This document shows positions 2,960 to 58,735 of a stretch of DNA of 64,000 bases, in pieces. Under the pieces are notes generated by a model. It was not told where the DNA came from. It worked only from the letters and a program-made list of their open reading frames with translations, and ran no database searches. Numbering within the stretch: position 1 is the first letter of the stretch; every line of letters starts with the position of its first letter. The stretch is from Propionibacteriaceae bacterium. GTDB taxonomy: Bacteria; Actinomycetota; Actinomycetes; Propionibacteriales; Propionibacteriaceae. The position numbers were made by a program, and so were the translations under genes. The DNA is taken from assembly GCA_031272505.1 (NCBI GenBank), contig JAISTQ010000054.1, positions 62,001 through 126,000 of the forward strand, written 5' to 3'.

Positions 2960-3252
2960 CCTCGCGCGGCTCCGCGAAATTGTCCTCGCTTCGCTCGGGC
3001 TCAGTTGTTCGTCGGAATGCCTTCGGCTCCTCCTCACTGGATTCCCAGCCTGCGGCTGAGAATGACGGGATGAGGTCACACTTTCGCGTCATCCTCGACG
3101 AACGTCGGGGATCCAGACGATTGAGGAGCGGGAGAGCGAGCTTGCTCATTCGACCGAGACGATTGAGTCTGACAGAGCGAAGCCCGAACAGTGAGCGACG
3201 CGCGTAGCGCTTGGAGCGAACACACTGAGCGGGAGCGGAGCGACCACCGATA
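2960..3252. repeat. Composite palindromic element R1 (head-to-head pair, intergenic)
   Basis: This fills most of the gap between the sortase and menE. It contains a short unit in reverse orientation and, after a spacer, a long unit in forward orientation starting at GCGTCATCCTCGACG. Each unit has hairpin A (GTCATYCTC-stem-GGRATCCAG), hairpin B before TTGGAGCGAAC, and a GAGCG-GAGCGA-type end. About 89 bp of the long unit (from about 3109) is the reverse complement of the element inside menC with one mismatch. Nothing in it looks like a gene. Confidence 0.85.
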
Positions 3253-3270
3253 CCGAGGCGGCACCCCCAC

Positions 3271-3276
3271 TACACT
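3271..3276 (+). promoter_or_regulatory. -10 hexamer of a leaderless menE promoter
   Basis: TACACT ends 7 nt before the ATG at 3284. It supports that ATG over the more upstream in-frame start at 3191, which would read through the repeat element. Confidence 0.5.
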
Positions 3277-3283
3277 GGGCATC

Positions 3284-4555
3284 ATGCATATGCAAGTGGT
3301 GTCGGGGGAGGGGGTCAGGCCCGCGTTGCGGCGGGTGTTGGCCGGTGAGGGGTGCGTGGCCGTCATTCCCGAAAAGGGGGCGGAGCCGTATTTGCGGATG
3401 TTGCGGCCCGAGGTGCCGGTGGAGCATGACGAGTGTGCGCTGATCGTGGCGACGTCGGGGGCGACGGGCGACCCGAAGGGGGTGATGCTGAGTGTGGATG
3501 CGGTGCGGTTCATGGTGGAGGCGACGCATCGGCGGCTCGGCGGGCCGGGGCGCTGGGATTGCGCGTTGCCGGTGCACCACATCGCCGGATTGATGACGAT
3601 CGCGCGGGATCTCGTCGCTGTGGAAGCCGCTGGGAGCGCCGAAATGCCCAAATACACGTCGATGGTGCCCGCGCAGTTGCACCAGGCGTTTCAGAATCCG
3701 GCTGAGAGCGCCAAATTGCGCCAATTTCAGGCTATTTTGCTGGGCGGCTCGGCCATCCCCGCCGGAATGCTGGAGGCGGCCGCAGCCGCCGGCCTCAACG
3801 TCGTCACCACCTACGGCATGTCCGAAACCTGCGGCGGCTGCGTCTACAACCGCCTCCCCCTCGACGGAGTCACCATCGGCTTCGAAAAGGACGTCGCTGT
3901 CTCGACCGCCAGCCCGGAGGGTGAGTCTCGGGGCACCCACTGGCCGTCATCCGCTATCCTCCCGGCAGCGACCAGTAGCCCCCAGCCACGCACCCCACCC
4001 CCGTCATCCTCGACGAATGTCGGGGATCCAGTGAGCGACGTGCCGGAGGCACTTGGAGCGAACCAAGGGCGCGCGAGCGTAGCGAGCACCATTACCCTCT
4101 CGGGGCCGATGGCATTCTTGGGGTATCGGCTGGCACCGGAGTTGACGGCGGCGGTGTTGACGGGCCAGACGGTGCGCACCCGCGATCTGGGGTACGTGGC
4201 CGATGGGCTGCTCTACGTGACGGGCCGGATGGACGACGTGGTGATCTCCGGGGGCGAGAACGTAGATCTGCACGCGGCGCAACAGGCCGCCGACCGCCTC
4301 TTCGGCATCGACGCCGCCACCCGGGTGGTGCTCGTCGATGTCCCCGACCCCCGTTTCGGCGTACGCATCGTGGCGGTGACGGCCAATGTCCTGCCGGACG
4401 CCCAGATCGTCAACCCGCTGGCCGAGGTGCTGGAGCGTCCCGCCGTCCCGAAGCAGATCCATCGCCTGGACGCGCTGCCGTTGACGGCGTTGGGAAAGCT
4501 GAGCCGCGATAAGATAAGGGAGTTGATTGACGCGGGGGCGAGTCCGAGAAAGTGA
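3284..4555 (+). CDS. menE: o-Succinylbenzoate--CoA ligase with in-frame repeat insertion
   Basis: MenE activates o-succinylbenzoate with ATP and CoA in menaquinone synthesis. The ANL-superfamily P-loop ATSGATGDPKG, the TYGMSET motif and the C-terminal hinge GRMDDVVISGGENV are present. The protein is 423 residues, roughly 60 longer than a compact actinobacterial MenE. The excess is a block at about 3895-4090 that encodes Ser/Pro/Ala-rich, MenE-unlike sequence and consists of a palindromic repeat element; native sequence resumes at ITLSGPM. The insertion lies just after the TYGMSET region in a surface-loop-like position and keeps the frame. The start at 3284 was chosen from the leaderless promoter and the end of R1. 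It is followed after 1 nt by menA. Activity is likely but unproven. Confidence 0.88.
   Translation: MHMQVVSGEGVRPALRRVLAGEGCVAVIPEKGAEPYLRMLRPEVPVEHDECALIVATSGATGDPKGVMLSVDAVRFMVEATHRRLGGPGRWDCALPVHHIAGLMTIARDLVAVEAAGSAEMPKYTSMVPAQLHQAFQNPAESAKLRQFQAILLGGSAIPAGMLEAAAAAGLNVVTTYGMSETCGGCVYNRLPLDGVTIGFEKDVAVSTASPEGESRGTHWPSSAILPAATSSPQPRTPPPSSSTNVGDPVSDVPEALGANQGRASVASTITLSGPMAFLGYRLAPELTAAVLTGQTVRTRDLGYVADGLLYVTGRMDDVVISGGENVDLHAAQQAADRLFGIDAATRVVLVDVPDPRFGVRIVAVTANVLPDAQIVNPLAEVLERPAVPKQIHRLDALPLTALGKLSRDKIRELIDAGASPRK
3895..4090 (+). repeat. Palindromic element R2, in frame inside menE
   Basis: It contains hairpin A (CTCGAC-GAAT-GTCGGGG), hairpin B (GTGCC-GGA-GGCAC), TTGGAGCGAAC and the end GAGCGTAGCGAGCACC. 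An upstream module (TCGACCGCCAGCCCGGAGG and the following ~30 bp) is shared with the element in menD. It is about 195 bp, or 65 codons, with no stop codon in the menE frame. Confidence 0.85.
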
Positions 4556-4556
4556 T

Positions 4557-5429
4557 ATGGCTTCGATAGCTCAATGGGTGGAGGGTGCCCGGTTGCGCAC
4601 CCTGCCGGCGGCGATTTCCCCGGTGGTGGGCGGCGCCGCCATCGCGATTTACGAGCACCAGTTCGATTGGCTGCTGTGCATCCTGGCGCTGGTGACCGCG
4701 CTGCTGATCCAGATCGGCTCGAATCTGGCCAACGACTATTCGGACGGCATCCGGGGCACCGACGCCGAGCGGGTCGGCCCGCTGCGGCTGGTGGGTTCCG
4801 GAGCGGCCCGCCCAAAGCAGGTGCTGGGAGCGGCGCTGGGCTGCTGGGTCTTGGCGGCCGTGACGGGCCTGGTCGTCGTCATGCTGACCGGCTATTGGTG
4901 GCTGCTCGCGGTGGGCGCGGGCTGCATCGTCGCGGCCTGGTTTTACACCGGCGGGAAGCACCCGTATGGGTACGCCGGGCTGGGGGAGTTGTTCGTCTTC
5001 GTCTGCTATGGCCTGGTGGCGGTGAACTTCACCGTGTTCATCCAGGTGGGCGCGTTCACCTGGGGAGGGCTGTGGGTCTCGGTGGCGCTGGGGCTGCTCT
5101 GCTGCGGCATCCTGGTGGCCAACAACCTACGCGACATTGACGGCGATCTGGCCGCGGGCAAGCGCACGCTGGCCACCAAGATGGGCGCGCCAGGCACCCG
5201 TTATTTCTACTTGGCGCTCGTCATCGCCGCCACCTTGGCGGTTGTCGCCGTCGCCTTGGCCACCGATTGGTGGGCGCTGCTGGGGCTGGCGATGCTGGTG
5301 CTGCTCGTCGATCCGCTGCGGCTGGTGTTGCGCGGGGCGACGGGCCGTCCGCTCATCTATGTGCTGAAACTCACCGGCTTGGCCGAGCTGCTCTGCTCGC
5401 TGGGCCTGCTGGTGGGCCTGCTGGGGTGA
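4557..5429 (+). CDS. menA: 1,4-Dihydroxy-2-naphthoate polyprenyltransferase
   Basis: MenA joins the polyprenyl chain to 1,4-dihydroxy-2-naphthoate at the membrane, giving demethylmenaquinone. The 290-residue protein has the UbiA-family prenyl-diphosphate motif NDYSDGIRGTD and a second Asp-rich motif NNLRDIDGDLAAGKRTLA, with about eight hydrophobic helices. The ATG at 4557 lies 1 nt after the menE stop, so translation is probably coupled; an in-frame start at 4527 would overlap menE and is less likely. Its prenyl donor may come from the polyprenyl diphosphate synthase at 27418-28377. No insertion is seen in this gene, unlike its neighbours menE, menC and menD. Confidence 0.93.
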   Translation: MASIAQWVEGARLRTLPAAISPVVGGAAIAIYEHQFDWLLCILALVTALLIQIGSNLANDYSDGIRGTDAERVGPLRLVGSGAARPKQVLGAALGCWVLAAVTGLVVVMLTGYWWLLAVGAGCIVAAWFYTGGKHPYGYAGLGELFVFVCYGLVAVNFTVFIQVGAFTWGGLWVSVALGLLCCGILVANNLRDIDGDLAAGKRTLATKMGAPGTRYFYLALVIAATLAVVAVALATDWWALLGLAMLVLLVDPLRLVLRGATGRPLIYVLKLTGLAELLCSLGLLVGLLG

Positions 5430-5433
5430 GCCC

Positions 5434-6645
5434 ATGGAGAGCTTCGTCTATGCCATCGAGATGCCCACCGAGTTCCGAGGCATCACCCGCCGCGAGGGGA
5501 TGATTCTGCGCGGGGCGGCCGGCCTGGGGGAGTGGTCGCCGTTTTGGGATTATGACGACGCGGAGTCCCGCCCCTGGTGGCAGGCGGCTCTGGAGGCGGC
5601 CGAGCAGGGGTTCCCCGCCCCGGTGCGCCACACTGTCCCCGTCAACGTGACCATCCCCGCCGTCTCCCCCGCCGACGCGCACCACCGCGTCCTCGCCTCC
5701 GGCTGCGCCACCGCCAAAGTCAAAGTCGCCCACTACCCGTTGGTATCGAGTTCGCTTCGCTCACGCACTCTTTGTTCGCTCCAAGCACCTTCGGTGCGTC
5801 GCTCACTGTTCGGGCTTCGCCCTGTCAGACTCAATCGTCTCGGTCGAATGAGCAAGCTCGCTCTCCCGCTCCTCAATCGTCTGGATTCCCAGCCTACGGC
5901 TGAGAATGACGGGGCGGGGACACACTCTCTCCGTCATCCTCGACCGCAGGTCGGGGATCCAGTCCGACCAGGCCGGAGGCCTCTGGGAGGACAAAGCACG
6001 CGGGAGCGAAGCGACCACCACTTAGCAGACGAGGCACGGGTGGAGGCGGTGCGCGATGCGCTGGGGGCGGCGGGGAAGCTGCGGCTTGACGCGAACGGGT
6101 CGTGGAGCGTGGACGAGGCGTTCGCCCGGATCAAGGCATACGCCAAATACGACCTGGAGTACGTGGAGCAGCCCTGTGCCAGCATCGACGAGCTGGCCGA
6201 GTTGCGCCGGAAGCTGGCGCGGGCCGGCGTCAATGTGCGCATCGCCGCCGACGAGTCGATTCGCCACAGTGGCGATCCGCTGCGGGTGAGCCGGGCCGAG
6301 GCGGCCGACATCGCGGTGCTCAAGGTGCAGCCGCTGGGGGGAGTGCGCCGCTGCCTGGAGCTGGCCGAGCAAATCGGGCTGAGCGTCGTCGTCTCGTCAG
6401 CCTTGGAGACGTCGGTGGGCATCCGGATGGGCCTGGCCCTCGCCGCCGCGTTGCCGACCCTGGATTTCGCCTGCGGCCTGAACACCGTCGCATTGTTGTC
6501 TCATGATGTGGTCACCACGCCGCTGGTAGCGGAGCACGGCCAGCTCACGCTCCGCGAGGTGGAGCTGGCTCCCGGAGCCGATTGGGCTGCCGACGCTGAC
6601 ACCGTTACCCGTTGGCAACAGCGCCGCGATAGGCTCAGCGCGTGA
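5434..6645 (+). CDS. menC: o-Succinylbenzoate synthase with ~90-residue in-frame repeat insertion
   Basis: MenC, an enolase-superfamily enzyme, dehydrates SHCHC to o-succinylbenzoate. The catalytic set is visible: the KxK motif in TAKVKV, metal ligands in DANG, VEQP and AADES, and the second Lys in LKVQP. The protein has 403 residues where about 310-330 is usual. The extra sequence begins right after KVKVA and ends before DEARVEAVRDALG; it is rich in Arg, Ser, Leu and Pro and is encoded by a palindromic element (5741-6020). The insertion sits close to the first catalytic Lys, so activity depends on it looping out. The ATG lies 4 nt after menA, and the 3' end overlaps menD by 4 nt (GTGA). Confidence 0.88.
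   Translation: MESFVYAIEMPTEFRGITRREGMILRGAAGLGEWSPFWDYDDAESRPWWQAALEAAEQGFPAPVRHTVPVNVTIPAVSPADAHHRVLASGCATAKVKVAHYPLVSSSLRSRTLCSLQAPSVRRSLFGLRPVRLNRLGRMSKLALPLLNRLDSQPTAENDGAGTHSLRHPRPQVGDPVRPGRRPLGGQSTRERSDHHLADEARVEAVRDALGAAGKLRLDANGSWSVDEAFARIKAYAKYDLEYVEQPCASIDELAELRRKLARAGVNVRIAADESIRHSGDPLRVSRAEAADIAVLKVQPLGGVRRCLELAEQIGLSVVVSSALETSVGIRMGLALAAALPTLDFACGLNTVALLSHDVVTTPLVAEHGQLTLREVELAPGADWAADADTVTRWQQRRDRLSA
5741..6020. repeat. Palindromic composite element R3, in frame inside menC
   Basis: A long unit in reverse orientation is joined head-to-head with a short unit in forward orientation, mirroring R1. About 89 bp of the long unit is the reverse complement of R1 with one mismatch. Hairpin arms are CTCAGCC/GGCTGGG and GCACC/GGTGC in the reverse unit, and CTCGACC/GGTCGGGG and AGGCC/GGCCT in the forward unit. 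The whole ~280 bp has no stop codon in the menC frame. Confidence 0.87.
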
Positions 6646-7109
6646 CCAAATCCGAACGGATTGCCGCCGAGGTAGTCGCGGAGTTGTTGGAGCGGGGGGT
6701 ACGCGAAGCAGTGCTCTGCCCCGGTTCGCGCAGCGCCCCCTTGGCTTTGGCGTTGGCGCAGGCCGAGCAGCAGGGGAGCTTGCGGTTGCACGTCCGCATT
6801 GACGAGCGGGGTGCCGGATTCCTGGCGCTGGGTTTGGCGAAGGCCACCGAGGCGCCGACGGCGGTGGTCACCACCTCCGGCACGGCGGTGGGGAATCTGC
6901 TCCCCGCGGTGATGGAGGCCTACCACGCGCGGGTGCCGCTGGTCGTCGTCACCGCTGACCGCCCGGAAGGATGGGCCGAAAAGCGGGCGAACCAGACCAC
7001 CTGGCAATCCGGCATCTTCGGGCGCTTCACCGAGCCTGGCGAGCACATCGGGCCAGCGCATCTCAACGTGCACCTGGGCGAACCGCTGGTGGAGGTGGAG
7101 GATGACTAA
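6642..7109 (+). CDS. menD: MenD N-terminal (PYR) part, separate ORF
   Basis: MenD (SEPHCHC synthase) condenses isochorismate with 2-oxoglutarate using thiamine diphosphate. This 155-residue ORF holds the N-terminal domain: CPGSRSAPLALAL, the catalytic-Glu motif RIDERGAGFLALG, TTSGTAVGNLLPAV and TADRP. After WQSGIFG it jumps almost directly to GPAHLN, lacking roughly 30 residues normally found there, and then stops. The stop overlaps the ATG of the next ORF (ATGACTAA, 7102-7109). Repairing the frame alone would not restore the missing helix region, so this is not a simple one-base error. It may work as a two-subunit enzyme made by coupled translation, or it may be decaying. It starts with GTG overlapping the menC stop. 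Confidence 0.8.
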   Translation: MTKSERIAAEVVAELLERGVREAVLCPGSRSAPLALALAQAEQQGSLRLHVRIDERGAGFLALGLAKATEAPTAVVTTSGTAVGNLLPAVMEAYHARVPLVVVTADRPEGWAEKRANQTTWQSGIFGRFTEPGEHIGPAHLNVHLGEPLVEVEDD

Positions 7110-8133
7110 CGCCGTCGTCATCGCCGGGGACGCCCGCCCTGCCGTGGGCCGGCAAGCCAACGAGTTCGCGCGTGCCCACGGCTTGCCGCTGGTCGCCGAG
7201 CCGTCCTCGAATGCCCGCTACGGCGACGCGCTGCGCTACGGACGGGTGCTGCTCGCCTCCCGGCTCGCCGCCGAAATCGAGGTGGTGTTCGTCTTCGGCC
7301 ACCCCACCCTCTCCCGCCCGGTTGCCCGCCTGCTCGACCGCCGCGACATCCAGATCATCCGCCTCGCCGACGAAGTGCAAGTCGCCCCCATCGCGGTGAC
7401 CGCGCTCGCCACCGACACCGCCTGGCTCGACAAGTGGCACACCGCCGACGATTCGGTCACCCCACTTGAACCCTCAGGGGCGTTATCTTCGACCGTCGGC
7501 CCGGAGGGTAAGTCTCCCGGCACCTTTTGGCCGTCATTCTCAGCCGAAGGCTGGCGACGTGCCGGAGGCACTTGGAGCGAACCAAGTACGAGTGAGCGCA
7601 GCGAACACCACCCACTCTTCCTGGGCAACTCCAACGTCATCCGCGACTTCGACCTGGCCCCCGTGCCCGCGGAGGCGGTGCGGGTGTACGCCAACCGGGG
7701 GCTGTCCGGCATTGACGGCGTGGTCTCCACGGCCATCGGGGTGGCCCTGGGGCTGGGGGAGCCGACCCTCGCCGTCATCGGGGACGTCTCCTTCATCCAT
7801 GACCTGAACGCGCTGGCCATCCCCACCGGCGAACCGCGCCCCCAACTGCGCATCGTGGTGGTGGACGACCATGGCGGTTCGATCTTCGCCTCGCTGGAGT
7901 ACGGACGGTCGGAGTTCGCCGCCCACTTCGAGCGGCTCTTCGCCACCCCCACTGACGTCGACCTCGCGGCCACCGTCGCCGCCCTCGGCATCCCCGTGCA
8001 GACCGTCGCGAGCTGGGAGGCCTGCCAGCAGCTCCCGGAAATCGCCGGGCTGGAAGTCGTCATCCTTACCGCCGACCGCTCCCAGCGTCAAGCCGAAGCC
8101 CAAGCGCTCGCCCGCATCGCCCAGGAGTTGTGA
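7102..8133 (+). CDS. menD: MenD middle and C-terminal (TPP-binding) part, separate ORF with repeat
   Basis: This 343-residue ORF continues MenD in another frame: the middle domain (VVIAG, HPTLSRPVARLLDR), then GNSNVIRD, NRGLSGIDGVVSTAIG and the TPP/Mg motif GDVSFIHDLNAL with DDHGGSIFASLE. Between DKWHTADD and FLGNSNVIRD, where a family member has about 50 ordinary residues, it carries a repeat-encoded stretch (about 7487-7610), so here the element seems to replace native sequence rather than only add to it. TPP-binding and substrate motifs are otherwise intact. The 8-nt overlap with the upstream ORF predicts translational coupling. Together the two ORFs make about 498 residues against the usual 530-580. 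Confidence 0.8.
   Translation: MTNAVVIAGDARPAVGRQANEFARAHGLPLVAEPSSNARYGDALRYGRVLLASRLAAEIEVVFVFGHPTLSRPVARLLDRRDIQIIRLADEVQVAPIAVTALATDTAWLDKWHTADDSVTPLEPSGALSSTVGPEGKSPGTFWPSFSAEGWRRAGGTWSEPSTSERSEHHPLFLGNSNVIRDFDLAPVPAEAVRVYANRGLSGIDGVVSTAIGVALGLGEPTLAVIGDVSFIHDLNALAIPTGEPRPQLRIVVVDDHGGSIFASLEYGRSEFAAHFERLFATPTDVDLAATVAALGIPVQTVASWEACQQLPEIAGLEVVILTADRSQRQAEAQALARIAQEL
7487..7610 (+). repeat. Palindromic element R4, in frame inside menD
   Basis: It begins with the same module as R2 (TCGACCGTCGGCCCGGAGG). It then has a shortened hairpin A (CTCAGCC-GAA-GGCTG), hairpin B (GTGCC-GGA-GGCAC), TTGGAGCGAACCAAG and the end GAGCGCAGCGAACACC. It is read in a different phase from R2 and still has no stop. 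Confidence 0.82.
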
Positions 8134-8882
8134 TGCCCGTCCCACTCGCCGATGTCTGGGCAGCGATGCCCACCTGGGGCTGGGTGGTCCTCGGCGTGAC
8201 GGCCTTCACCATCGGCTTTTCGAAGACGGCGGTGAACGGCCTGGGCACCCTCTGTATCGCGGTGCTCGCGATGCTGATGCCCGCCCGCGAATCCACCGGC
8301 GTGGCCCTGTTGTTGCTGCTGGTCGGCGACATCGTGGCGGTGATCGTCTACCGCAAGAACGTGGAGTGGAAGCTGCTCGCCAACCTGATCCTGCCGGTGC
8401 TGCTCGGCCTTGGTTTGGGCACCGCCTTCCTCAGCTTCGTCGACGACCTGGTGCTGAAGCGCACCATCGGCGTGGTGCTGCTGGTGCTGCTGCTCATCGG
8501 GCTCTTGCCGGTGAAAGTGAATGCCTCCGGCCTGCCCATGAAGCTCACCTACGGCTCGCTGGCCGGCTTCACCACCATGGTCGCCAACGCCGGCGGCCCG
8601 GCCATGAACCTCTACCTGCTCGCCTCGAAATTCGACAAGTGGCGCTTCATCGCCACCACTAGTTGGTTCTTCTTCGCCGTCAACGTCACCAAAGTCCCCT
8701 TCCAAATCGCCCAGGGCATCATCGTCCCCGACACCGCCCGCCTCGCCGCCACCCTCGCCGCCCTGGTGCTGCTCGGCTGTTGGATCGGCCGCCTCACCAT
8801 CGACCACATCAACCAACACCTCTTCGACACCCTCGTCATCATCCTCACCGCCATCTCCGCCCTCTACCTCATCTTCGGCTAG
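8133..8882 (+). CDS. TauE/SafE family membrane permease
   Basis: The 249-residue protein is almost entirely hydrophobic, with about eight predicted membrane helices and the paired-repeat look of the TauE/SafE family (GFSKTAVNGLGTL near the N-terminus, ANAGGPAMNLYLL in the second half). Members export or import small sulfur-containing or organic anions; the substrate here cannot be told. The ATG shares one base with the menD stop (TGATG) and follows an AGGAG box at 8123-8127, so it is probably cotranscribed with the men genes. A GTG at 8130 is an alternative start. A link to menaquinone synthesis is positional only. Confidence 0.82.
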   Translation: MPVPLADVWAAMPTWGWVVLGVTAFTIGFSKTAVNGLGTLCIAVLAMLMPARESTGVALLLLLVGDIVAVIVYRKNVEWKLLANLILPVLLGLGLGTAFLSFVDDLVLKRTIGVVLLVLLLIGLLPVKVNASGLPMKLTYGSLAGFTTMVANAGGPAMNLYLLASKFDKWRFIATTSWFFFAVNVTKVPFQIAQGIIVPDTARLAATLAALVLLGCWIGRLTIDHINQHLFDTLVIILTAISALYLIFG

Positions 8883-8981
8883 CCCCCGCAATTCGGACAG
8901 CCCTTCTCGCCATGCGCACCCAACAGCCCGCGTCATCCGTCAGACCGAGCAAAGATGCAGGGTATCAACAGCAGGAGTGGA

Positions 8982-8987
8982 TAGAAT
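8982..8987 (+). promoter_or_regulatory. -10 hexamer of a leaderless menF promoter
   Basis: TAGAAT ends 8 nt before the GTG start of menF and no Shine-Dalgarno sequence is seen. This suggests a second transcription unit starting at menF. Confidence 0.55.
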
Positions 8988-8995
8988 AGTGGGCT

Positions 8996-10054
8996 GTGCC
9001 TACCCCGGAAGTGATGTGGATTCGACGTGGCGTCGGGGTGGCCATTGAAGTGGTGGAGCAGCGGATTGCGGCGGCGACGCTGAGTGAGGCGGCGGCCCAG
9101 CTGCGCGAATTGCGCCCCCAGGGGCGGGCGTTCGTGTGTGGCACGTTTGATCCGCAGCACAGCGCGGCGCAAGCGGTGGTGTTGCTGGGGCCGGAGCGGG
9201 CGCTCGACGTGGCGAGCGTCACCAAAGCGCCGTCCCCAAGTCACGTAGCCGCGGAGCACTACCGCGAGTACACCGGCAAGATTCAACAAGCGACCGCGAA
9301 GATCTCCGCCACCGAGTTGGAGAAGGTGGTGTTGGCCCGCGCGCTCACCTTGCAGGCTCCCGCCACGATTGATCCGACCCAGGTCGTCGCCTGCCTGGCG
9401 CAGGCGTACCCCACCTGCTGGACGTTCTATCTGGACGGGTTGGTTGGGGCCTCGCCAGAGTTGCTGGTGCGGGTCCAGGATGGGCTGGTAACGTCACGGG
9501 TGTTGGCGGGGACGATCCGGCGGGCTCCCGGCTCGGAGGCCAAGCTCGCCAGTTGGTTGGCGGGCGACGACAAGAATCTGCGCGAGCACGAGTTTGCCCG
9601 CGATTCAGTGGCGGCGGCGCTGCGGCCGTTCTGCACCGCGATGAATGTGCCCGAATCCCCCTCGGTGCTGCACCTGCCCAACGTGCTGCACCTGGCTTCG
9701 GAGATCACCGGCGCGTTGAAGCCCGGCTTCTCAGCGTTGGATTTGGCTATCGCGCTGCACCCGTCGGCGGCCGTCTGCGGCACCCCGACGGAGTTGGCCC
9801 GGCAGACCATCGCCGAGTTGGAGGGCTTGGATCGCGGCCATTACGCCGCGCCCATCGGCTGGGTGGACGCCCAAGGCAACGGCGAACTTGCCATCGCGTT
9901 GCGCTGCGGGCAGATTCACCCCGACGATCCGAGCCGCATCACCCTTTACGCGGGCGCGGGCATCGTCGCCGATTCTGACGCCGCCGAAGAGTACGCGGAG
10001 ACCGAATCAAAGCTGCTGCCGATGCTGCACGCGTTAGGGTATACCCATGAGTGA
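8996..10054 (+). CDS. menF: Isochorismate synthase
   Basis: MenF converts chorismate to isochorismate, the first committed step to menaquinone. The 352-residue protein matches the chorismate-binding fold: [31 protein letters not shown], the HLASEITG motif, [14 protein letters not shown] and [19 protein letters not shown]. These match the isochorismate/anthranilate synthase I family, and the menaquinone context picks MenF over a siderophore EntC-type enzyme. The GTG start follows a leaderless-type promoter. The 3' end overlaps menG by 8 nt (ATGAGTGA), so the two are probably coupled. Confidence 0.9.
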
Positions 10055-10724: not shown

Positions 10725-10767
10725 CCCGAAAAACGTCGGAAACTCGCTCCGCGAAAAGCCTGCCGCT

Positions 10768-10811
10768 ACCCACAATCAGCCCAAAAATGGCTGTTTTCTA
10801 AAATCGTGGGT
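10768..10811. repeat. 44-bp palindrome, copy 1
   Basis: The ends are ACCCACAAT and ATCGTGGGT (one mismatch to a perfect inverted repeat) enclosing exactly 26 bp, which contain an inner CAGCC/GGCTG stem. The outer 9-bp arms and the total length match copy 2; the inner stem differs. Confidence 0.65.
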
Positions 10812-10873
10812 AACCGAACATGCTGTGGGAGGATGGTTTACGCTCAATAGTCTCGCCGATCCGGGCGGAAACG

Positions 10874-10917: not shown

Positions 10918-10966
10918 TTGCTCCGACACCGGGGACGGGGTGGGAAGCGCGTCCGCGGAGCGGCGC

Positions 10967-11131: not shown

Positions 11132-11186
11132 AGAGGTCGGGGTTCGGATAGGATGGGGGTGTTCCGTTTGTCCCCCCAGGAGAGCC

Positions 11187-39111: not shown

Positions 39112-39927
39112 ATGCGGATCGGGACTTTCAACGTGAACGGGATACGGGCGTGCGTGCGCCGGGGGTTTGAGCCGTGGCTGGCGCAGGCCGGGTTGGACGT
39201 GCTGGTGCTGCAGGAGGTGCGTTGCCCGGTGGCGGAGCTTCCCGACGTCTTCGGTGGCTGGCATAGCGAGTATTTCCAAGGGAATCAGCCGGGGCGCAAC
39301 GGGGTGATGGTGCTCAGCAAGATCGAGCCGAGCGCGGTGCGCGAAGGCTTTGGGTACAAAGACGATCCGCAGGGCCGCTACCTGGAGACGGATTTTGACG
39401 GATTGACGATTGCCTGCCTGTATCTGCCCAAGGGGGGCTCGCCGGCGGTGGGCACCGAGGACCATCTGGAGCGCTATCACCGGAAGATGGCGTTCATGGC
39501 CGCCTTCAAGGAGTATGTGCGCGAGCATATCGCGGATCAACAGGCCGCCGGGCGTGAGTATCTGCTGATGGGGGATATGAACATCGCGCACACCGAGGCG
39601 GATTTGAAGAACTGGCGCTCCAACCAGGAGACGGACGGCTTCCTGCCCGAGGAGCGCGCGTGGTTCGGCGAGTTGCTGGGCGTCGGCCTGGTCGACGTGG
39701 TGCGGCAATTGCATCCCGGCGAGGACGGCCCCTACTCATGGTGGAGTTGGCGCGGCCGGGCCTTCACCTCGGACGCCGGCTGGCGCATCGACTACCACCT
39801 GGCCACGCCCGGCTGGGCGGCCCGCGCTACCAGCGGCGGCACCATCAAAGAGCCCAGCTACGAGGCCCGCCTCTCCGACCACGCCGCCGTCATCGTGGAG
39901 TACTCCACCCGTCATTCTCGGGCGTAG
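39112..39927 (+). CDS. Exonuclease III family AP endonuclease
   Basis: The 271-residue enzyme acts in base-excision repair at abasic sites and 3' ends. Catalytic landmarks of the EEP fold are NVNGIRA, LQEVRC (metal Glu), GRYLETDF, the MGDMNIAH Asp/Asn motif and the final LSDHAAVIVEY with the active His. The last residues (RHSRA) and the TAG stop are supplied by palindromic element R5, so the gene end appears to have been set by repeat insertion. It is most like bacterial Xth/ExoA; the precise subgroup is not assigned. Confidence 0.9.
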   Translation: MRIGTFNVNGIRACVRRGFEPWLAQAGLDVLVLQEVRCPVAELPDVFGGWHSEYFQGNQPGRNGVMVLSKIEPSAVREGFGYKDDPQGRYLETDFDGLTIACLYLPKGGSPAVGTEDHLERYHRKMAFMAAFKEYVREHIADQQAAGREYLLMGDMNIAHTEADLKNWRSNQETDGFLPEERAWFGELLGVGLVDVVRQLHPGEDGPYSWWSWRGRAFTSDAGWRIDYHLATPGWAARATSGGTIKEPSYEARLSDHAAVIVEYSTRHSRA

Positions 39928-39998
39928 CCCGGGAATCCAGTTCGCGACGTACCGAAGCTACTTGGAGCGAACAAAGAGCGCCCGAGCGAAGCGAGGTC
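39910..39998 (+). repeat. Palindromic element R5 between convergent genes, supplying both stop codons
   Basis: Hairpin A is CTCGGGC-GTA-GCCCGGG; its loop region contains the TAG stop of the exonuclease gene. Hairpin B (GTACC-GAA-GCTAC) is imperfect, followed by TTGGAGCGAAC and GAGCGAAGCGAGGTC. The last bases give the TGA stop of the ABC ATPase on the opposite strand. Confidence 0.85.
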
Positions 39999-52187: not shown

Positions 52188-52223
52188 TCTGATCCGCTGC
52201 GCACTGTTTTCGCCCAAGCGGGC

Positions 52224-52229
52224 TACCCT
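52224..52229 (+). promoter_or_regulatory. -10 hexamer of a leaderless thioesterase promoter
   Basis: TACCCT ends 6 nt before the ATG at 52236; no Shine-Dalgarno sequence is present. Confidence 0.45.
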
Positions 52230-52235
52230 AGTGCT

Positions 52236-53249
52236 ATGTCTTTCACGACGCAGGTCCCGATCCGCTGGGTCGATCTGGATGCCCAAGGGCATGTGAACAA
52301 CGCCGTCATCCCCGAGTACGCGCTGCAGGCTTGGGTGGCTTTTCTGACGGACGGCGGCCGCACCGAGCTGCTCAACGAGCTGGAGGTGCTGAAGGCGCAG
52401 GTGCAGTTCCTCGCGCCCATCCCGTTCTCCACCACGCCGATCACCGTCGAGTTGTCGGTGCTCGGGGTGACGGGCTTTCGCGCCCGGGTGGATTTCGTGA
52501 TGAAGACCGGCGCCCGGCGGGTGGCCTTGGTGCGCGCCACGCTCGGCTTCGCGGAGGCGGACGAGAGTAAATCGCTGACGGATCAGCAGCGCGCTTGGTT
52601 CGCCCACCACATCGTCCCGCATGGGACGGGCACCCAGGTGTTGACGGAAAAGCAGGTGAGCACCTCGGTGGAGGTGGCCCGCGAGAAGTCCCGCTCCGGT
52701 GAGCGCACCGCCATTGACGCGCTGGCGGCCTTGGTGTCGGGGGAGCAGCCGGTCACCGATTCCACCATCGAGCTGCACACGTCGGCCACCGATCCGTTCC
52801 CTCCCTTCCCGAATTGGCGGGTCGGCCCGGAGGCCTATGAGTACGATTTCGCGCTCCGCTACACCGACATCACCACCACCGGGCGGATCTCCCCGGTGGC
52901 GCTGTTCAAGATGGTCGCCGAGGCGCGGGTGCGGATGAACCCGCAGGACAACGGCAAGACCCGCATGGAGGAAGCGGCCGAGGCGGAGATGGTGTGGCTG
53001 GTGGTCCGCCAGGACGCCGAATACCTCGCCCCGATCCCTTACGCCGAGGAGCCGTTGAAGGTGCGCACCGCCTACGCCCGCGTCGGCAACACCTCGCTCA
53101 CCCTGGTCGCCCAGATCGAGCTGGACGGCGAGGCGCTGGCCCGCACCACCACCGTCCTCGTCGCCGCCGACTCCGCCGGCACCCCCATCCCCGTCCCCGA
53201 CTCCATCGCCGAAGGCATCAACATCTGGCCCGCCACCGTCGCCATCTGA
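52236..53249 (+). CDS. Double-hotdog acyl-CoA thioesterase
   Basis: The 337-residue protein has two hotdog domains. The first begins VPIRWVDLDAQGHVNNAVIPEY, with the catalytic Asp and the GHVNN turn of 4-hydroxybenzoyl-CoA-type thioesterases. The second starts near residue 205 (YDFALRYTDITTTGRISPVAL) with a degenerate GHVNN site. Such fused proteins act on acyl-CoA or acyl-carrier substrates; the exact one is unknown. Confidence 0.82.
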   Translation: MSFTTQVPIRWVDLDAQGHVNNAVIPEYALQAWVAFLTDGGRTELLNELEVLKAQVQFLAPIPFSTTPITVELSVLGVTGFRARVDFVMKTGARRVALVRATLGFAEADESKSLTDQQRAWFAHHIVPHGTGTQVLTEKQVSTSVEVAREKSRSGERTAIDALAALVSGEQPVTDSTIELHTSATDPFPPFPNWRVGPEAYEYDFALRYTDITTTGRISPVALFKMVAEARVRMNPQDNGKTRMEEAAEAEMVWLVVRQDAEYLAPIPYAEEPLKVRTAYARVGNTSLTLVAQIELDGEALARTTTVLVAADSAGTPIPVPDSIAEGINIWPATVAI

Positions 53250-53257
53250 CACTGCCT

Positions 53258-53280
53258 GAGCGAACGAAGTGAGCGAAGAC
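53258..53280 (+). repeat. Remnant R6 of the palindromic element family
   Basis: Only the end module remains (GAGCGAACGAAGTGAGCGAAG). It is directly followed by the 18-bp operator-like palindrome, the same order as at R7. Confidence 0.5.
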
Positions 53281-53283
53281 CAT

Positions 53284-53301
53284 ATGGGGAAACATCCCCA
53301 T
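53284..53301. promoter_or_regulatory. Operator-like palindrome copy 1 (before FHA gene)
   Basis: ATGGGGA-AACA-TCCCCAT: perfect 7-bp arms and a 4-bp spacer, about 60 bp before the FHA-like gene start and upstream of a TATGCT box at about 53325-53330. Confidence 0.55.
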
Positions 53302-53360
53302 AGCCATCTGTAGACCGCGAGCACTATGCTCTTACCAGACAGGCAAGCGAAGGGATTGTG

Positions 53361-54077
53361 ATGGCCCAAGAGATCATTCCGTTGACGTTGTTTTTCGAGG
53401 GGGAGTCGGTGGAAGTGCCGTCCGACGCCCCTTTCTACATCGGGCGGGAGGGTGATTTCGTCCCCGACGAGAACCCGTACCTGCATCGCCGCGCGCTGGA
53501 GATCGTCTTCGCGCACGGCATCTGGTGGCTGACGAACACCGGCTCGCACATCTCCGTCACCGTCTCTGATCCGCACACCAGCGCCCACACCTGGCTCACC
53601 CCCGGCGCCCGCACCCCCCTGATGTTCGACGAGACGATGGTCTCCTTCACCGCCGGGCCGTGGGAATACGAGATGACGATCCACAACGCGGTGCCGCTGT
53701 GGCAGTACGGCTTCTCCATCAGTTCGCAGGGCGGCAGCACCACCATCGGCGCGGTCACCCTCACCCGCAGCCAGAAGCAGTTGATCGTGGCGCTCGCCGA
53801 GCCCGCGCTCCGCCGCGAGGGGACTGGCTCGTCCGTCGTCCCCACCAACGCGGCCGCCGCTGAGCGGCTCGGGTGGGCCCGCACCCGCTTCAACCGCAAG
53901 CTGGACAACGTCTGCGACAAGCTGGACATGCTCGGCGTTGACGGGCTGCACGGGGGCACCACCGGCCACGCCACCAACCGCCGCGCCCGCCTGGTGGAGT
54001 TCGCGCTCTCCGCCGGGCTGGTCACCCCAGTGGATCTGCTGCTGTTGGACGAATCGGTGCCTGATGATGAAGAGTGA
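53361..54077 (+). CDS. FHA-like domain protein with C-terminal helical DNA-binding-like part
   Basis: The 238-residue protein has an N-terminal beta-rich segment resembling a forkhead-associated domain (FYIGREGDF, then HRRALEIVFAHGIWWLTNTG, about residues 25-70), which would bind phosphothreonine. The usual FHA Ser/His after the Arg-loop is only partly recognisable. After TRSQKQLIVALAEPALRREG (about 135-155) comes a winged-helix-like segment (NAAAAERLGWARTRFNRKLDNVCDKL). The pairing suggests a phosphorylation-responsive regulator, which is an inference. The ATG at 53361 follows GAAGGGA; a GTG 3 nt upstream is possible. The palindrome at 53284 lies in its promoter. Confidence 0.65.
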   Translation: MAQEIIPLTLFFEGESVEVPSDAPFYIGREGDFVPDENPYLHRRALEIVFAHGIWWLTNTGSHISVTVSDPHTSAHTWLTPGARTPLMFDETMVSFTAGPWEYEMTIHNAVPLWQYGFSISSQGGSTTIGAVTLTRSQKQLIVALAEPALRREGTGSSVVPTNAAAAERLGWARTRFNRKLDNVCDKLDMLGVDGLHGGTTGHATNRRARLVEFALSAGLVTPVDLLLLDESVPDDEE

Positions 54078-54175
54078 AAAAAGTCGTTGGAGTTAGCGAA
54101 ACTTTTTACATCTCATTTAACGAGACAGGAAACCTAATAACGCTCAGGATTTCTTTACTTTTCCCTCTAGACGAC

Positions 54176-54306
54176 TAAACTGGTTACATCGCGAGGGGGG
54201 TTGTACCTCGGTCAGCTTCGAAGTTGTAGCTAACTGAGGGAAGAGGCAATCTCCTGACCGTGCTTGTACTTAGACGTGCAAGCCCATCCAATTACCAGGA
54301 GTTTCT
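54176..54306 (+). promoter_or_regulatory. Promoter and structured ~120-nt leader of the GH3 gene
   Basis: TAAACT at 54176-54181 is a likely -10, placing the RNA start near 54188. The leader can form CGAGG/CCTCG (54192-54196 with 54206-54210), an alternative long-range stem CGGTCAG/CTGACCG (54209-54215 with 54254-54260) and a hairpin GCTTGTA/TGCAAGC (54262-54268 with 54277-54283), followed by an AGGAG box at 54297-54301. The first two stems share bases, so they are mutually exclusive. I do not recognise a known riboswitch class. Confidence 0.4.
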
Positions 54307-57300
54307 ATGAGATCAACTACCTACCGGCGGAGTATCATCGCTGGCCTGCTCACGGCTGGCTTGGTGTTCACCGGCATGCCTGGGATCACCACCCAGCAGG
54401 CCGCCGCCGCTCCACTATTGCCCTATCAAGACCAAACGCTTCCCTTCAGTGTCCGCGCCGCAGATTTGGTATCCCGCATGACGCTCGAAGAGAAGGCTCC
54501 GCAGTTCGCCTCGACCCTCTATACCGGGTCCTCTGGTGCCGCTGCGCCGGCCATCCCGCGCTTGGGTGTGCGCACCTACAACTACTGGTCCGAGGCGCTG
54601 CACGGCGTTGCCCGTGAAGGCCTGGCCACCGAGTTCCCCACCGGCTTGAACATCGCCGGCACCTGGGATCGCGATCTCGTGCAGGCGGCGACGAACGCCA
54701 TCTCCGATGAGGCGCGCGTGAAGACGAACGACTGCTACACCTTGGATGCCCAAGGCCAGCCGACCGTCTCGGTGGACACCCAATGCAAGGGCTTGACGTA
54801 TTGGTCCCCGACCATCAACCTCGCGCGTGATCCGCGCTGGGGCCGCGCCGATGAGAACTACGGCGAAGATCCGTACCTCGCCGGCGAGACCGCCGGCCAG
54901 TTCGTGCTCGGCCTGCAGGGCGGCAACGCCTCCAAGCCCGATACCGTCGGCGGTGGCATCCAGGCCAACTACCTGAAGGCCGTCTCCACCACCAAGCACT
55001 ATCTGGCCAACAACTCCGAGGTGAACCGTCACGACGGCACCTCGAACCTCTCGGATCGCTCGCTGCACGAGTATTACACCGCGCACTTCGGCAAGGCGAT
55101 GCAGGAGTACGGCGTGAAGTCGTACATGACGTCCTACAACGCGGTGAACGTGGTGGATACCTTCACCACCGACACTGCCGCCCCGCTCATCAAGACCGGC
55201 GTCGAGAGCGATTTCACCTCCATGGGTTCCGGCACTTACGAGGCCAGCACCCCGGTGTCCGCCAGCATCTATGTGAACAACACGCTGCTGCGCCGGATGT
55301 ACGGCTTTGACGGCTTCTCCACCTCAGACTGCGGCGCCACCAACAACGTGATCGGCGTGGGCGCCAGCTTCTCTGGTGGCCACGCTTGGCGTCCGGAGGC
55401 GCTCGGCGGCCGTCAAGTCACCGCCGCTGAAGGCGCCGCCTGGTCGCTGAAGGCCGGCACGGATGTCGACTGCTGGGCCACCGTTTACCCGCAGACGCTC
55501 CCGGTCGCGCAGCAGCAGGGCCTGGCCACTGAGCAGGATTGGGATGTCGCGCTGGTGCGCGCCTTCACCGTCCGCTTCCAGACTGGCGAATTCGACACGG
55601 TGAACCCGTATCGCACCAGCCAGTATGTCTCCGCCGCCAACAACGACAAGTCGATTGAGTCGGCCGAGCACCAGGCGATCGCACATCAGATGAGCCTGGA
55701 ATCCCCGGTGCTGCTCAAGAACGACGGCAACGTGCTGCCGTTCACCTCGAAGTCCGGCAACACGGTCATCGTGGGCTACTACGGCGAAGAGCCTGTGCAT
55801 GGCGGCTATTCTCCGGAGTCCACGCTGAACACCAAGTCGGCCTATGAGGGCGTCCGCGATTTCGTGGGTGCCAGTGGCAACGTCTCCATCATTGACGACG
55901 CGGATCTCGGTTTCTTCTCTTCGTCGAAGCCAATCATCGGTGGCTCGATGGACATGATGACTTTCCAGTACCGCGCCATCGACTACTACGATGCCACGAA
56001 CACTTACATCGGTTTCGCTCCGGCGAATGCCTCCACCATAACCGCTGACGGTGCTGGCTATACCTATGGCTGCTTCTCGTGGGGTTCTGTGAGCTTCTGC
56101 TTCGGCGGTAACGGCGCTAGCCTCAACGGTTATTTCGACATCAAGCAGACTGCTGGTGTTCCGGCTGGCGCGAATTCTATCCAGATCCCGCTCAGCCTCC
56201 CGTACGGTGGCACGAGCTATCTGCCCGCCGCTGCGGGTGAGCCGGCTGGCTGCATGTCCACCCCTGTGGGTTGCAAGACCATCGGTGAGATCACGTTGCA
56301 GGCTGGTTCGCATACGCCGGTCACCGTTCCGGTGTACAAGAACGAGTACATCACCGGCGCCTCCAGCTATGCCACGCAGTATCTGCCGCTGAACGTCACG
56401 CTGGCTCAGCTTGGCTTGGCACCTGGCGATACCGACACCATCCGCTTCTCCTTCGGCCTCACCGGTGTGGCTGCCGGTGGCTCCGGCCTCAGCTTCACCA
56501 CCGCGCAGGAGAATCAGATCAAGGCTGCTGATCGCGTGATCGTCTATATCGGCACCGCCGAAGGCGATTCGAATGAGGAGCAGGATCGCCCGAATGTGAA
56601 CTTCCCGCAGAGCCAGGCGCAGATGGCCAAGCAGATCGCGCAGTGGAATCCGAATACCGTGGTCTGGATCCAGGCGGTCGGCCAGATGAACATCACCCCG
56701 TTCAAGGACGATGTGAAGGCCATCATCTGGTCCACCTACAACGGCCAGTTCCAAGGCGATGCGGTGGCTGAGGTGCTCTGGAATGCCTCGGTGAACGTGG
56801 GCGCGGGCAAGACGGTCCAGGCGAATCCGTCTGGTCGCCTCACCTACACCTACTACTCTGACGTGCCGAACCAGTTGACGGCGTCGACGGATTACGCATT
56901 GACGACTACCGAGTACAAGGCCACCACCGATCCGGACGGCACGATTTGCGGCCGCACCTACTGGTATTACAAAGTGAGCGCTAGCTGCGCCGCCCCGGAT
57001 TATGTGTTCGGCCATGGCTTGAGCTACACCAGCTTCGCCTATTCCGGCCTCACCCTCTCGCAGACTTCGGTTACGCCGAATGACACCATCAACGCTTCGG
57101 TCACCGTCACCAACACCGGTGCCTATGCCGGGCGCGAAGTGGTGGAGCTGTATGCGATTTCCCCAGGTGCGGATGGCGAGAACCGGCCGTTGAAGCAGCT
57201 GAAGGGCTATGCCAAGACCGATCTGCTGCAGCCGGGCGCTTCCGTCACCGTGAGCATCCCGCTGAAGGCGTCGGATCTGTGGTTCTGGGATACCGCGGGC

Positions 57301-58593
57301 CAGAAGCGCGTCTATGACACCGGCGCGTGGAAGATCCAGGTGGCTCCGAGTTCCGCTGACGGCGCTGGTTTGACGGCCACGTTGAACATCTCCGGCACTC
57401 GCAAGGCGGGCGTGGATGTAGTCACCGCGATTCCGGATGGCGTCCAGCTCTATCTGACGACTCCGGATAACGTGATCAACGCCAACCTGTCGGCTACCAA
57501 GCACGATCAGTCCTTCTGGGATCTCACCGATCCGGCCGTGAAGGTGGAGTACTCGGTGCAGAATCCGGTCGTGGCGAAGGTCACCGCCGATGGCGTGGTC
57601 TCCCCGATCGCGGAGGGCGCTACCCTCGTGGTCGCCAAGGTCACCGCCGATGGCGAGACGAAGCAGACCACCTTCCCGGTAGTCGTGCATTCGCGGAACA
57701 TCACCTCCGGCGTGGCGATGACGCAGGGTAATGCTGCTGACGGCTACCCGCTGCCGAGTGTCACGGATTACACCTTCCAGGTGAACTTCCCGACTCCTTC
57801 CCCGACGCTCTCCGAAGCCAAGGCGGGCGTGCAGTTGAAGGCCAACATCTTCCCGGATGTCACCGGGACGGAGACCTTCAGCTACCTCATCGCCCCGATG
57901 GACAACAACTCCGCCGGCGCCTCCGTCACCAACAGCGGTCTGCTGAAGGCCACGAAGACGGGCGAGGTGGAAGTCACCGTTGTCGCGGAGCTGAACGGCG
58001 TGCAGAAGTCGCACACCATCAGGGTGCGGGTTACCGCTGATCCGGTCGCCCCGCAGGAGCCGACGACACCTTCCTCCAAGGTGAACTTGGCTACCTCCAC
58101 GGTGAAGGCCGGCTGGCGCGCCTACACCGGCAAGCAGGTGAAGCCTGGTTCCATCGTGGTGAACGGCGTGAAGCTCGTGGAAGGCACGGACTTCACCTAC
58201 ACCTCGCTGGGCACCAACAAGGCCATCGGCAAGGGCACCGCGGTAATCTCCGGCATCGGCACCCATGAAGGCACCAAGTCGGTTACCTTCAAGATTGTGC
58301 CGGCGAAGAGCAAGATCACCGCACTCACCCCGGCCAAGAAGAGCCTGAAGGTCACTTGGAAGAAGTCCTCCTCCGCCGAGGGCGTCACTGGCTACCAGGT
58401 CGCCTACAAGGTGAAGGGCGCGGCTTCGTTCAAGACGAAGACGGTCACCGGCGCTTCGAAGACATCCTTGACGCTTACTGGCTTGACAAAGGGCAAGCAG
58501 TACACCATCAAGGTACGTGCCTACAAGAAGATCTCCGGCGTCAGCTATCCTGGCCCGTGGACTCAAAAGACCTCCACCAAGAAGGTCAAGTAA
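54307..58593 (+). CDS. Secreted multidomain glycoside hydrolase family 3 (beta-xylosidase-like)
   Basis: The 1428-residue protein has a signal peptide ending near AAAA (about residue 38). The GH3 catalytic part carries TYNYWSEALHGVA, RDPRWGRADENYGEDPYLAG, STTKHYLANNSE and the nucleophile Asp341 in FSTSDCGATN. YxYWSEALHGV is typical of beta-xylosidase-type GH3 enzymes, so release of xylose or arabinose from plant glycans is likely. A beta-sandwich insert (about 540-730), the GH3 C-terminal part, an Fn3-like domain (about 905-1030), Big2-like Ig domains and a C-terminal Fn3 domain with Lys-rich linkers follow. There is no sorting motif, so it is secreted or held by binding domains. The tail resembles that of gut Firmicutes surface enzymes, hinting at domain exchange. 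Confidence 0.87.
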   Translation: MRSTTYRRSIIAGLLTAGLVFTGMPGITTQQAAAAPLLPYQDQTLPFSVRAADLVSRMTLEEKAPQFASTLYTGSSGAAAPAIPRLGVRTYNYWSEALHGVAREGLATEFPTGLNIAGTWDRDLVQAATNAISDEARVKTNDCYTLDAQGQPTVSVDTQCKGLTYWSPTINLARDPRWGRADENYGEDPYLAGETAGQFVLGLQGGNASKPDTVGGGIQANYLKAVSTTKHYLANNSEVNRHDGTSNLSDRSLHEYYTAHFGKAMQEYGVKSYMTSYNAVNVVDTFTTDTAAPLIKTGVESDFTSMGSGTYEASTPVSASIYVNNTLLRRMYGFDGFSTSDCGATNNVIGVGASFSGGHAWRPEALGGRQVTAAEGAAWSLKAGTDVDCWATVYPQTLPVAQQQGLATEQDWDVALVRAFTVRFQTGEFDTVNPYRTSQYVSAANNDKSIESAEHQAIAHQMSLESPVLLKNDGNVLPFTSKSGNTVIVGYYGEEPVHGGYSPESTLNTKSAYEGVRDFVGASGNVSIIDDADLGFFSSSKPIIGGSMDMMTFQYRAIDYYDATNTYIGFAPANASTITADGAGYTYGCFSWGSVSFCFGGNGASLNGYFDIKQTAGVPAGANSIQIPLSLPYGGTSYLPAAAGEPAGCMSTPVGCKTIGEITLQAGSHTPVTVPVYKNEYITGASSYATQYLPLNVTLAQLGLAPGDTDTIRFSFGLTGVAAGGSGLSFTTAQENQIKAADRVIVYIGTAEGDSNEEQDRPNVNFPQSQAQMAKQIAQWNPNTVVWIQAVGQMNITPFKDDVKAIIWSTYNGQFQGDAVAEVLWNASVNVGAGKTVQANPSGRLTYTYYSDVPNQLTASTDYALTTTEYKATTDPDGTICGRTYWYYKVSASCAAPDYVFGHGLSYTSFAYSGLTLSQTSVTPNDTINASVTVTNTGAYAGREVVELYAISPGADGENRPLKQLKGYAKTDLLQPGASVTVSIPLKASDLWFWDTAGQKRVYDTGAWKIQVAPSSADGAGLTATLNISGTRKAGVDVVTAIPDGVQLYLTTPDNVINANLSATKHDQSFWDLTDPAVKVEYSVQNPVVAKVTADGVVSPIAEGATLVVAKVTADGETKQTTFPVVVHSRNITSGVAMTQGNAADGYPLPSVTDYTFQVNFPTPSPTLSEAKAGVQLKANIFPDVTGTETFSYLIAPMDNNSAGASVTNSGLLKATKTGEVEVTVVAELNGVQKSHTIRVRVTADPVAPQEPTTPSSKVNLATSTVKAGWRAYTGKQVKPGSIVVNGVKLVEGTDFTYTSLGTNKAIGKGTAVISGIGTHEGTKSVTFKIVPAKSKITALTPAKKSLKVTWKKSSSAEGVTGYQVAYKVKGAASFKTKTVTGASKTSLTLTGLTKGKQYTIKVRAYKKISGVSYPGPWTQKTSTKKVK

Positions 58594-58606
58594 GTAAAAC
58601 CTCATC

Positions 58607-58642
58607 AGCAAGTGGCCCCAGGTCCCCCTGGGGCCACTTGCT
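58607..58642 (+). terminator. Terminator of the GH3 gene
   Basis: A perfect 16-bp stem (arms 58607-58622 and 58627-58642, AGCAAGTGGCCCCAGG and its complement) with a 4-nt loop starts 13 nt after the stop codon. The T-run is weak. Confidence 0.85.
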
Positions 58643-58646
58643 TCCC

Positions 58647-58735
58647 CGTCATCCTCGAGCCCCAGGCTCGGGGATCCAGTCCGACCATGCCGGAGGCATT
58701 TGGGAGGACACAGAACGTGTGAGCGAAGCGAACTC
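58647..58735 (+). repeat. Palindromic element R7 (intergenic)
   Basis: Hairpin A is CTCGAGCC-CCA-GGCTCGGGG, followed by ATCCAGTCCGACC, hairpin B ATGCC-GGA-GGCAT, TTTGGGAGGAC and GTGAGCGAAGCGAAC. It is followed within 4 bp by the second operator-like palindrome. Confidence 0.85.

Follow-up and report, generated by a model that had tools for sequence, protein, structure and literature searches.

The DNA analysed here, referred to as the window, is a stretch of 64,000 nucleotides from a Propionibacteriaceae bacterium (C54:62001-126000 of genome G000, a draft of 2,233,753 bases in 67 contigs, 98.35% complete and with a reported contamination of 0.12%). Matches of its proteins point to the same family. 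Near one end it carries menE, menC and menD, each of which holds an insert made of palindromic modules, and further copies of these modules lie elsewhere in the window (Table 1). One of them follows an endonuclease/exonuclease-family ORF (39112-39927), the stop of which falls within hairpin A of the copy at 39911..39998. The original prediction had given six sites a common order of parts, namely hairpin A, hairpin B and a GAGCG-AGCGA end. This order was recovered at all of them except the one at 7533, where A is cut short (GTCATTCTC..., without GGRATCC). A tRNA was the sole match of Rfam in the window at gathering cut-off.

Table 1. Genes, inserts and copies of the palindromic element in the window (positions counted from its first letter)
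Feature	Position	Strand	Details
A-B-C copy, left half of inverted pair	2982..3066	-	A 3039-3066, C core 2986-2996; covariance-model match G000:C54:64982-65066
Long A-D-B-C copy, right half of the same pair	3088..3247	+	A 3088-3114; module D with two ACGATTGAG within 3117-3167; B end 3211-3221; C core 3233-3243; covariance-model match
menE (o-succinylbenzoate-CoA ligase)	3290..4555	+	reading frame continuous through the insert
menE insert, limits approximate	3895..4090	+	upstream piece common to the menD insert, then A-B-C (4003-4089); open in the menE frame
menC (o-succinylbenzoate synthase)	5434..6645	+	403 aa, insert about 90 aa
menC composite insert, limits approximate	5743..6023	+	minus-strand A-D-B-C (A 5883-5910, C core 5752-5762) inverted against plus-strand A-B-C (5933-6018)
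menD, two overlapping frames (6642-7109, 7102-8133)	6642..8133	+	shorter than relatives
Insert in second half of menD, limits approximate	7487..7610	+	upstream piece, truncated A (7533-), B end 7572-7582, C core 7594-7604; covariance-model match G000:C54:69533-69608
A-B-C copy	39911..39998	+	covariance-model match
A-B-C copy, between two co-directional genes	58648..58735	+	covariance-model match
Hairpin A, plus strand	3088-3114, 4003-4029, 5933-5960, 39911-39938, 58648-58677	+	
Hairpin A, minus strand	3039-3066, 5883-5910	-	

On the strand that folds, the element reads from 5' to 3' as a pyrimidine-rich leader of about 10 nt with C at its end, GTC, hairpin A, CCAG, hairpin B, hairpin C and a tail of about 12 nt. 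Hairpin A has the layout ATYCTC-arm-loop-arm-GGGRAT and hairpin B comes in several makes; in a longer make of the element, a module D with two ACGATTGAG sits between A and B. Module D (3117-3201 and 5796-5880 in the window) also contains GAGCGAGCTTGCTC, which we take to resemble Pseudomonas REP cores. The GAGCG-AGCGA end, module C, is itself a hairpin of the form XY-GA-GC-GNA-GC-GA-Y'X', in which XY pairs with Y'X' in 44 of 46 aligned copies and occurs in five makes (CC/GG, GT/AC, GG/CC, CT/AG and GC/GC) around GA-GC-loop-GC-GA. The outer step of hairpin B is GA/GA in 18 of the 46 copies and Watson-Crick in 24 (CC/GG 12, TC/GA 9, GC/GC 3), with 4 other rows. We presume the GA/GA steps to be compatible with sheared tandem G.A pairs.

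The search patterns have to be kept in mind when such frequencies are read. The pattern for A fixes the first stem letters and the T of a T-G pair, and that for C (GAGCG..AGCGA) fixes the GA/GA step and the outer loop letters G and A; a count of 46/46 at such letters is therefore no test, since the patterns demand them. For a less biased count, the copies of each module were picked through another module, at loci chosen around exact matches to A or GGAGCGAAC. With hairpin A picked before the B end by ATCCA and pairing alone (n=59), CGTC stood ahead of the stem in 57/59 and T-G was the fifth pair in 57/59. After 79 B ends, a hairpin of the C plan was found in 66 and none in 13, and the GA/GA step was present in 57 of the 66, all of them picked by the B end.

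Pattern search of the whole genome gave 100 copies of hairpin A in G000 (51 forward, 49 reverse) and none with the reversed-pattern control, and 69 copies of GGAGCGAAC against 9 in the control. The search with a covariance model that the original prediction had proposed was run on G000 with a model built from 46 copies. It gave at least 138 matches at E<=0.01, a lower bound because 150 of 1467 candidates were scored, and the weakest of these matches may be due to chance. The predicted dispersed modular family, with long and short forms arranged as inverted pairs, thus exists and is larger than had been claimed, and the possibility that only a few copies exist can be set aside. In pairs of A lying within 250 bp of each other, the tags face inside in 16 cases, outside in 1 and the same way in 1. 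Two contigs, C36 and C39, share a near-identical inverted composite copy in their first 220 bases (loci L038 and L042). Going by these contig ends, composites of greater size may be moved or recombined as single units, and more copies probably exist than were counted.

To follow the arms, 46 of 60 picked copies, 44 of them distinct, were aligned (alignment A2). Pairing was kept in 93.9% of 1147 cells, and 38 of the 70 unpaired cells fall at the GA/GA step of B. It can be seen that, first, 152 cells (in 13 pairs) had changed on both sides and 7 on one side only, the shuffles averaging 51 two-sided cells. Secondly, the covariation score was 0.322 as against 0.131 in shuffles that leave the relatedness among copies in place, and was reached by none of the 500. 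The number of further pair types was not exceptional (23 observed, 24.9 expected; 494/500 shuffles reach that value). When the partners were slid, pairing dropped to 24-39%, a control that favours the structure, which was drawn from the very same sequences. The prediction that the arms of the hairpins vary while pairing is kept therefore holds for A, B and C. Its corollary, that the fold itself is copied or selected, may hold: the paired changes are real, but correction of the palindromes by template switching could give them too.

Correction of this kind, by template switching or gene conversion at the fork, would need neither selection of the fold nor transposition. It accounts for two-sided changes with few intermediates, and tandem duplications of leader and 5' arm in a congener, G011 (L114, L120, L139, L143), also speak for it. 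Under correction, however, mismatches should vanish, yet the GA/GA step of C (57/66) and the T-G pair of A (57/59) are kept, and both the dispersal to more than 100 sites and the loop rule described below are left unexplained. We regard correction as a rather unlikely origin of the paired changes; the conserved mismatches and the loop rule, as we read them, argue for selection of the fold.

The loops follow a common rule. In a scan of hairpin A in which no loop was demanded, 90 of 99 loops were cGNAg, 5 were cGAAC or cGAAT and 4 were others; in the set picked by ATCCA and pairing, 53/59 were GNA triloops, with one GAAT and five others. Hairpin B of make B1 had perfect arms of at least 4 bp in 54 copies, with 37 triloops (35 of them GNA), 15 tetraloops and 2 others; GNNA made up 13/15 of the tetraloops, and 4 of those were GNRA. 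For B2, GNA was found in 27/29 triloops, beside one tetraloop that was not GNNA, and for B3 in 21/21, while none of the six copies of B4 follows the rule, their loops being such as CTT. The first-found loops of C in 66 copies were GNA (45), GNNA (4), CCGA or CTGA (12) and others (5), a second GAGC overlapping module C being the source of the CCGA loops. In a looser scan for C with paired flanks, GNA accounted for 93/104 triloops and GNNA for 8/26 tetraloops, 15 of the latter being CCGA. Most loops are thus cGNAg, cGNNAg or cGNABg, which stabilise DNA hairpins, and few are of the RNA type GNRA. As loops within one family share descent, these counts are not independent, and GNAC loops may alternatively be read as one extra G-C pair.

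GNA and GNNA loops on GC stems have been described as making DNA mini-hairpins extraordinarily stable, with a melting temperature of 78 C for GCGAAGC (PMC4686876), and GNNA and GNAB tetraloops as stable in DNA and as counterparts of GNRA in RNA (PMC8373063). From the loop census and this literature, we infer that the fold is one of DNA. With DNA parameters, the top strand was the better folder in 57/58 copies. The z-score of the top strand against shuffles was -2.11 with RNA and -1.48 with DNA parameters, and the more negative RNA value counts against a DNA fold. The B4 loops, the 13 of 79 B ends without a hairpin of the C plan and a scan of G011 with GGGC-loop-GCCC, which is independent of the element and gave GNA in 5/15 triloops, count against the explanation favoured below.

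The positions of the copies relative to genes were classed by the codon-usage score on both flanks of 96 clusters. Coding sequence lay on one side in 36, 16 lay between convergent and 0 between divergent genes, 15 had neither flank coding and 5 were at contig ends; 12 lay between flanks on the same strand in differing frames, 4 in the same frame with stops and 8 in the same frame without stops. Most of the 8 differing-frame clusters that were looked at (of 12) were, as far as listed, gene borders, and at three of them (L007:8792, L029 and L004) the copy may extend one end of a protein. An alternative reading bears on these positions, that the hairpins are selected as RNA, as 3'-end stabilisers, terminators or attenuators, and are copied by recombination. 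Copies between convergent genes, and not between divergent ones, suit an RNA role at 3' ends and weigh against the DNA-based explanation given below, as does the RNA folding score; Di Nocera et al. moreover suggested transcription, and a function as RNA, for many tagged REPs (PMC3733652). RNA selection accords poorly, on the other hand, with tetraloops that are GNNA or GNAB and seldom GNRA, with the rarity of one-sided changes (7 against 152 two-sided cells), and with in-gene copies in which A lies on the coding strand in menE and on the other strand in feoB. We consider it unlikely that the hairpins are selected as RNA.

The 8 stop-free in-frame inserts lie in 7 genes: menE, menC, the second half of menD, dnaX, a TarF-like glycerophosphotransferase gene, cydDC (twice) and feoB. 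Six additional G000 loci showed no further in-frame insert. The elements themselves had no excess of open frames (3.57 of 6 open, 3.48 in shuffles). For menC, in 28 of 29 congeners both flanks are at most 21 nt apart and the insert is absent (the 29th, 66% complete, shows no menC), and none of 37 aligned homologues has it. In an AlphaFold2 model of MenC the enzyme keeps its fold and the insert is disordered, with 282 residues at 90 or above and residues 107-188 below 50. Since menC of the congeners is about 60-70% identical, exact ends were not obtainable by target duplication. The first insert in CydDC is absent in CydD of the ten homologues chosen for alignment, and the second lies in a linker that is variable among aligned homologues. 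The site in FeoB, several of whose nearest named matches are from Micropruina, corresponds to a shorter, variable stretch in twelve chosen homologues.

The inserts might also stem from mis-assembly of repeats or sit in dying genes. Several contigs start or stop near a copy. The menD gene is split; compared with relatives, its first half lacks about 28 residues and a linker has been lost. The men operon may accordingly be decaying, although a two-part enzyme may be an alternative explanation of the split; possible decay weakens the three men cases and counts against the explanation that we prefer, because the men inserts may sit in decaying genes. Against artefact or pseudogenes as a general explanation, all eight counted cases are open through the insert, dnaX, feoB and cydDC have family-model matches on either side of it, and reported contamination is low (0.12%). 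It seems very improbable that the in-frame inserts arose in this way.

Among 29 congeners, the A pattern had no match in 26 and 1-2 matches in three. In G011, 196 copies of another hairpin, GTCATNCTGCGCGNAGNCGCAG, were found with a pattern in which a GNA loop is already required; G019 has two, and G000 and 27 others none. The G011 elements have the leader, GTCAT and the ATC end in common with those of G000, and GNA loops were seen in 21/22 of their A-type hairpins. Their close pairs, among the matches listed (100 of the 196 copies), have tags outside in 14 cases, inside in 3 and the same way in 4. One stop-free same-frame case, with a weak score, was found in 23 clusters classed. A second species of the genus has its own family, different in sequence and similar in plan. 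At L114, L120, L139 and L143 of G011, tandem direct repeats of about 25 bp, made of the local leader and 5' arm GTCATCCTGC, adjoin complete elements upstream, as if copying had stalled in the hairpin and restarted.

The A-to-C pattern matched one genome in genome_contigs, that of Pseudomonas viridiflava, in which A-type and C-type repeats adjoin (the scan may omit the genome of origin), and a wide sequence family was rejected on this ground. This Pseudomonas genome has 279 A-type hairpins against 0 in the control, and among the 100 matches listed, 99 loops were GNAN, 94 GNAB and 5 GNRA. The A-to-C pattern gave no match in viral_contigs and the long element none in plasmid and phage records, so that carriage by viruses, plasmids or phages was likewise rejected. 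Congener G027 has more C motifs than its control (57 as against 15); the 15 loci examined were ordinary sequence and another repeat, and this excess was discarded as well.

The linked REP-type (Y1 HUH) transposase envisaged in the original prediction was searched for and not found. Profile search with PF01797 gave no match in G000 (draft, 98.35% complete) or in G011, and a RAYT/Y1 enzyme was rejected as the present mobiliser because no match was seen in either carrier species. A reverse transcriptase ORF (PF00078) occurs once in G000 (L146, G000:C49:85208-85825), without an adjoining A or B-end match among the matches listed, and none was found in G011; reverse transcriptase as the common mobiliser was therefore rejected as well. 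Within the genus, 14 genomes out of 30 have one to three PF01797 matches each. A REPtron-like locus of another type is present within the genus, at L130 of G012, where a Y1 gene is accompanied by long palindromes flanked on the 5' side by GGAGC.

A further possibility is that a RAYT-type Y1 transposase spread the family and has since been lost from the lineage. Y1 genes are, as noted, present in about half of the genus genomes, and REPs can outlast the deletion of a REPtron (PMC3733652). Neither carrier species, however, has Y1; L130, the only one of four Y1 loci examined that has long palindromes, has the GGAGC-flanked type; and no transposase is reported to be linked to CGTC REPs (PMC3733652). 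A lost Y1 transposase is, in our judgement, an improbable source of the family.

The original prediction regarded the kind of element as not recognised, which was not borne out, hairpin A having the features of CGTC-tagged REPs. These were defined by Di Nocera et al. in 2013 and include dRS3 of Neisseria and RPE-4 and RPE-6 of Rickettsia; tagged REPs are reported within genes, of which many serve replication and repair, and a dedicated or linked transposase was not found for CGTC REPs by these authors (PMC3733652). Beside the CGTC tag (57/59; C at position -1 with 1.98 bits over 100 pattern-picked copies), the likeness comprises A-T and T-A first pairs, which the search pattern fixes (46/46) and which are not an independent test, and a stem of 9 bp with a 5-nt loop when cGNAg is read as the loop, within the published 8-9 bp and 4-5 nt (the stem has 10 bp in A copies whose inner arms are 5 nt long). 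The CCA tail is invariant in 46 aligned copies, its CC being fixed by the pattern and its A not. Both also have dimers, sites that are convergent or co-directional, in-gene copies (replication genes included) and no linked tyrosine transposase (PF01797 gave no match in G000 and G011). In contrast, the present family is from Actinomycetota, and its A only heads a composite, A-B-C, which is about 110 bp long and includes two further hairpins. Dimers of the published CGTC families mostly have tags outside, by tendency and not by strict definition, whereas 16 of the 18 close pairs in G000 have them inside.

With the RPE of Rickettsia, the family shares palindromes lying in frame in protein genes (here 8 of 96 clusters, in 7 conserved genes), and an RPE-bearing enzyme, that of gmk, can keep its activity (PMC2229807). 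It differs from them in phylum, in that the G000 elements are GC-rich and composite, and in numbers, with 8 gene inserts against 19 reading frames for RPE. Short hairpins, an unpaired 5' tag and inverted pairs are shared with REPs and REPINs with RAYT (the GTAG superfamily), whose tag is GTAG and not CGTC and whose cognate Y1 transposase was not found in G000. Actinobacteria are not among the five phyla named for CGTC REPs in the account drawn on here (PMC3733652), and our literature search showed no actinobacterial CGTC REPs among the papers listed, which is weak evidence of absence. We regard the family as a composite line of CGTC REPs that is new and belongs to a phylum which that source does not name. 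What appears to be new is the long A-B-C composite, the congener's own family, the eight in-frame inserts and the loop rule.

Taken together, the elements are likely to be mobile palindromes that would have spread through an enzyme either lost or still to be recognised. The explanation that we favour, and hold to be probable by a modest degree, is that composite CGTC-type REPs act and spread as folded single-stranded DNA, with a predicted non-Y1 enzyme, and that copies in genes are tolerated when in frame. The top strand would fold while the DNA is single-stranded, on the lagging strand or during repair; an enzyme, predicted to be other than a Y1 (RAYT-type) transposase of this genome, would recognise the CGTC tag and the hairpins; new copies would be made through insertion, and inserts in genes would survive as disordered loops. 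This explanation draws on the copy number, the three-hairpin anatomy, the covariation, the loop and mismatch rules, the in-frame positions, the menC genes of congeners that have no insert, and the failure to detect Y1. With one genome per species, no insertion event, target duplication or empty site at the DNA level was seen, which counts against mobility.

A wider conjecture may be added, which we offer with considerable doubt: CGTC palindromes across phyla would carry a DNA loop code (cGNAg, cGNNAg and cGNABg with tandem G.A steps) that is read by a non-Y1 single-strand enzyme, each species would keep a private family, and new disordered segments would thereby enter essential proteins. CGTC REPs, as described in 2013, have no known transposase, and an RNA role has been suggested for them (PMC3733652). 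The loop rule offers a cheap and direct test of DNA versus RNA throughout the superfamily. Two congeners, each with a private family whose tags lie mostly inside in the one and mostly outside in the other, and in neither of which Y1 was detected, are a natural place to hunt for the missing enzyme through gene content. The inserts in dnaX, feoB and cydDC show how DNA of this kind could give an actinobacterium additional protein segments.
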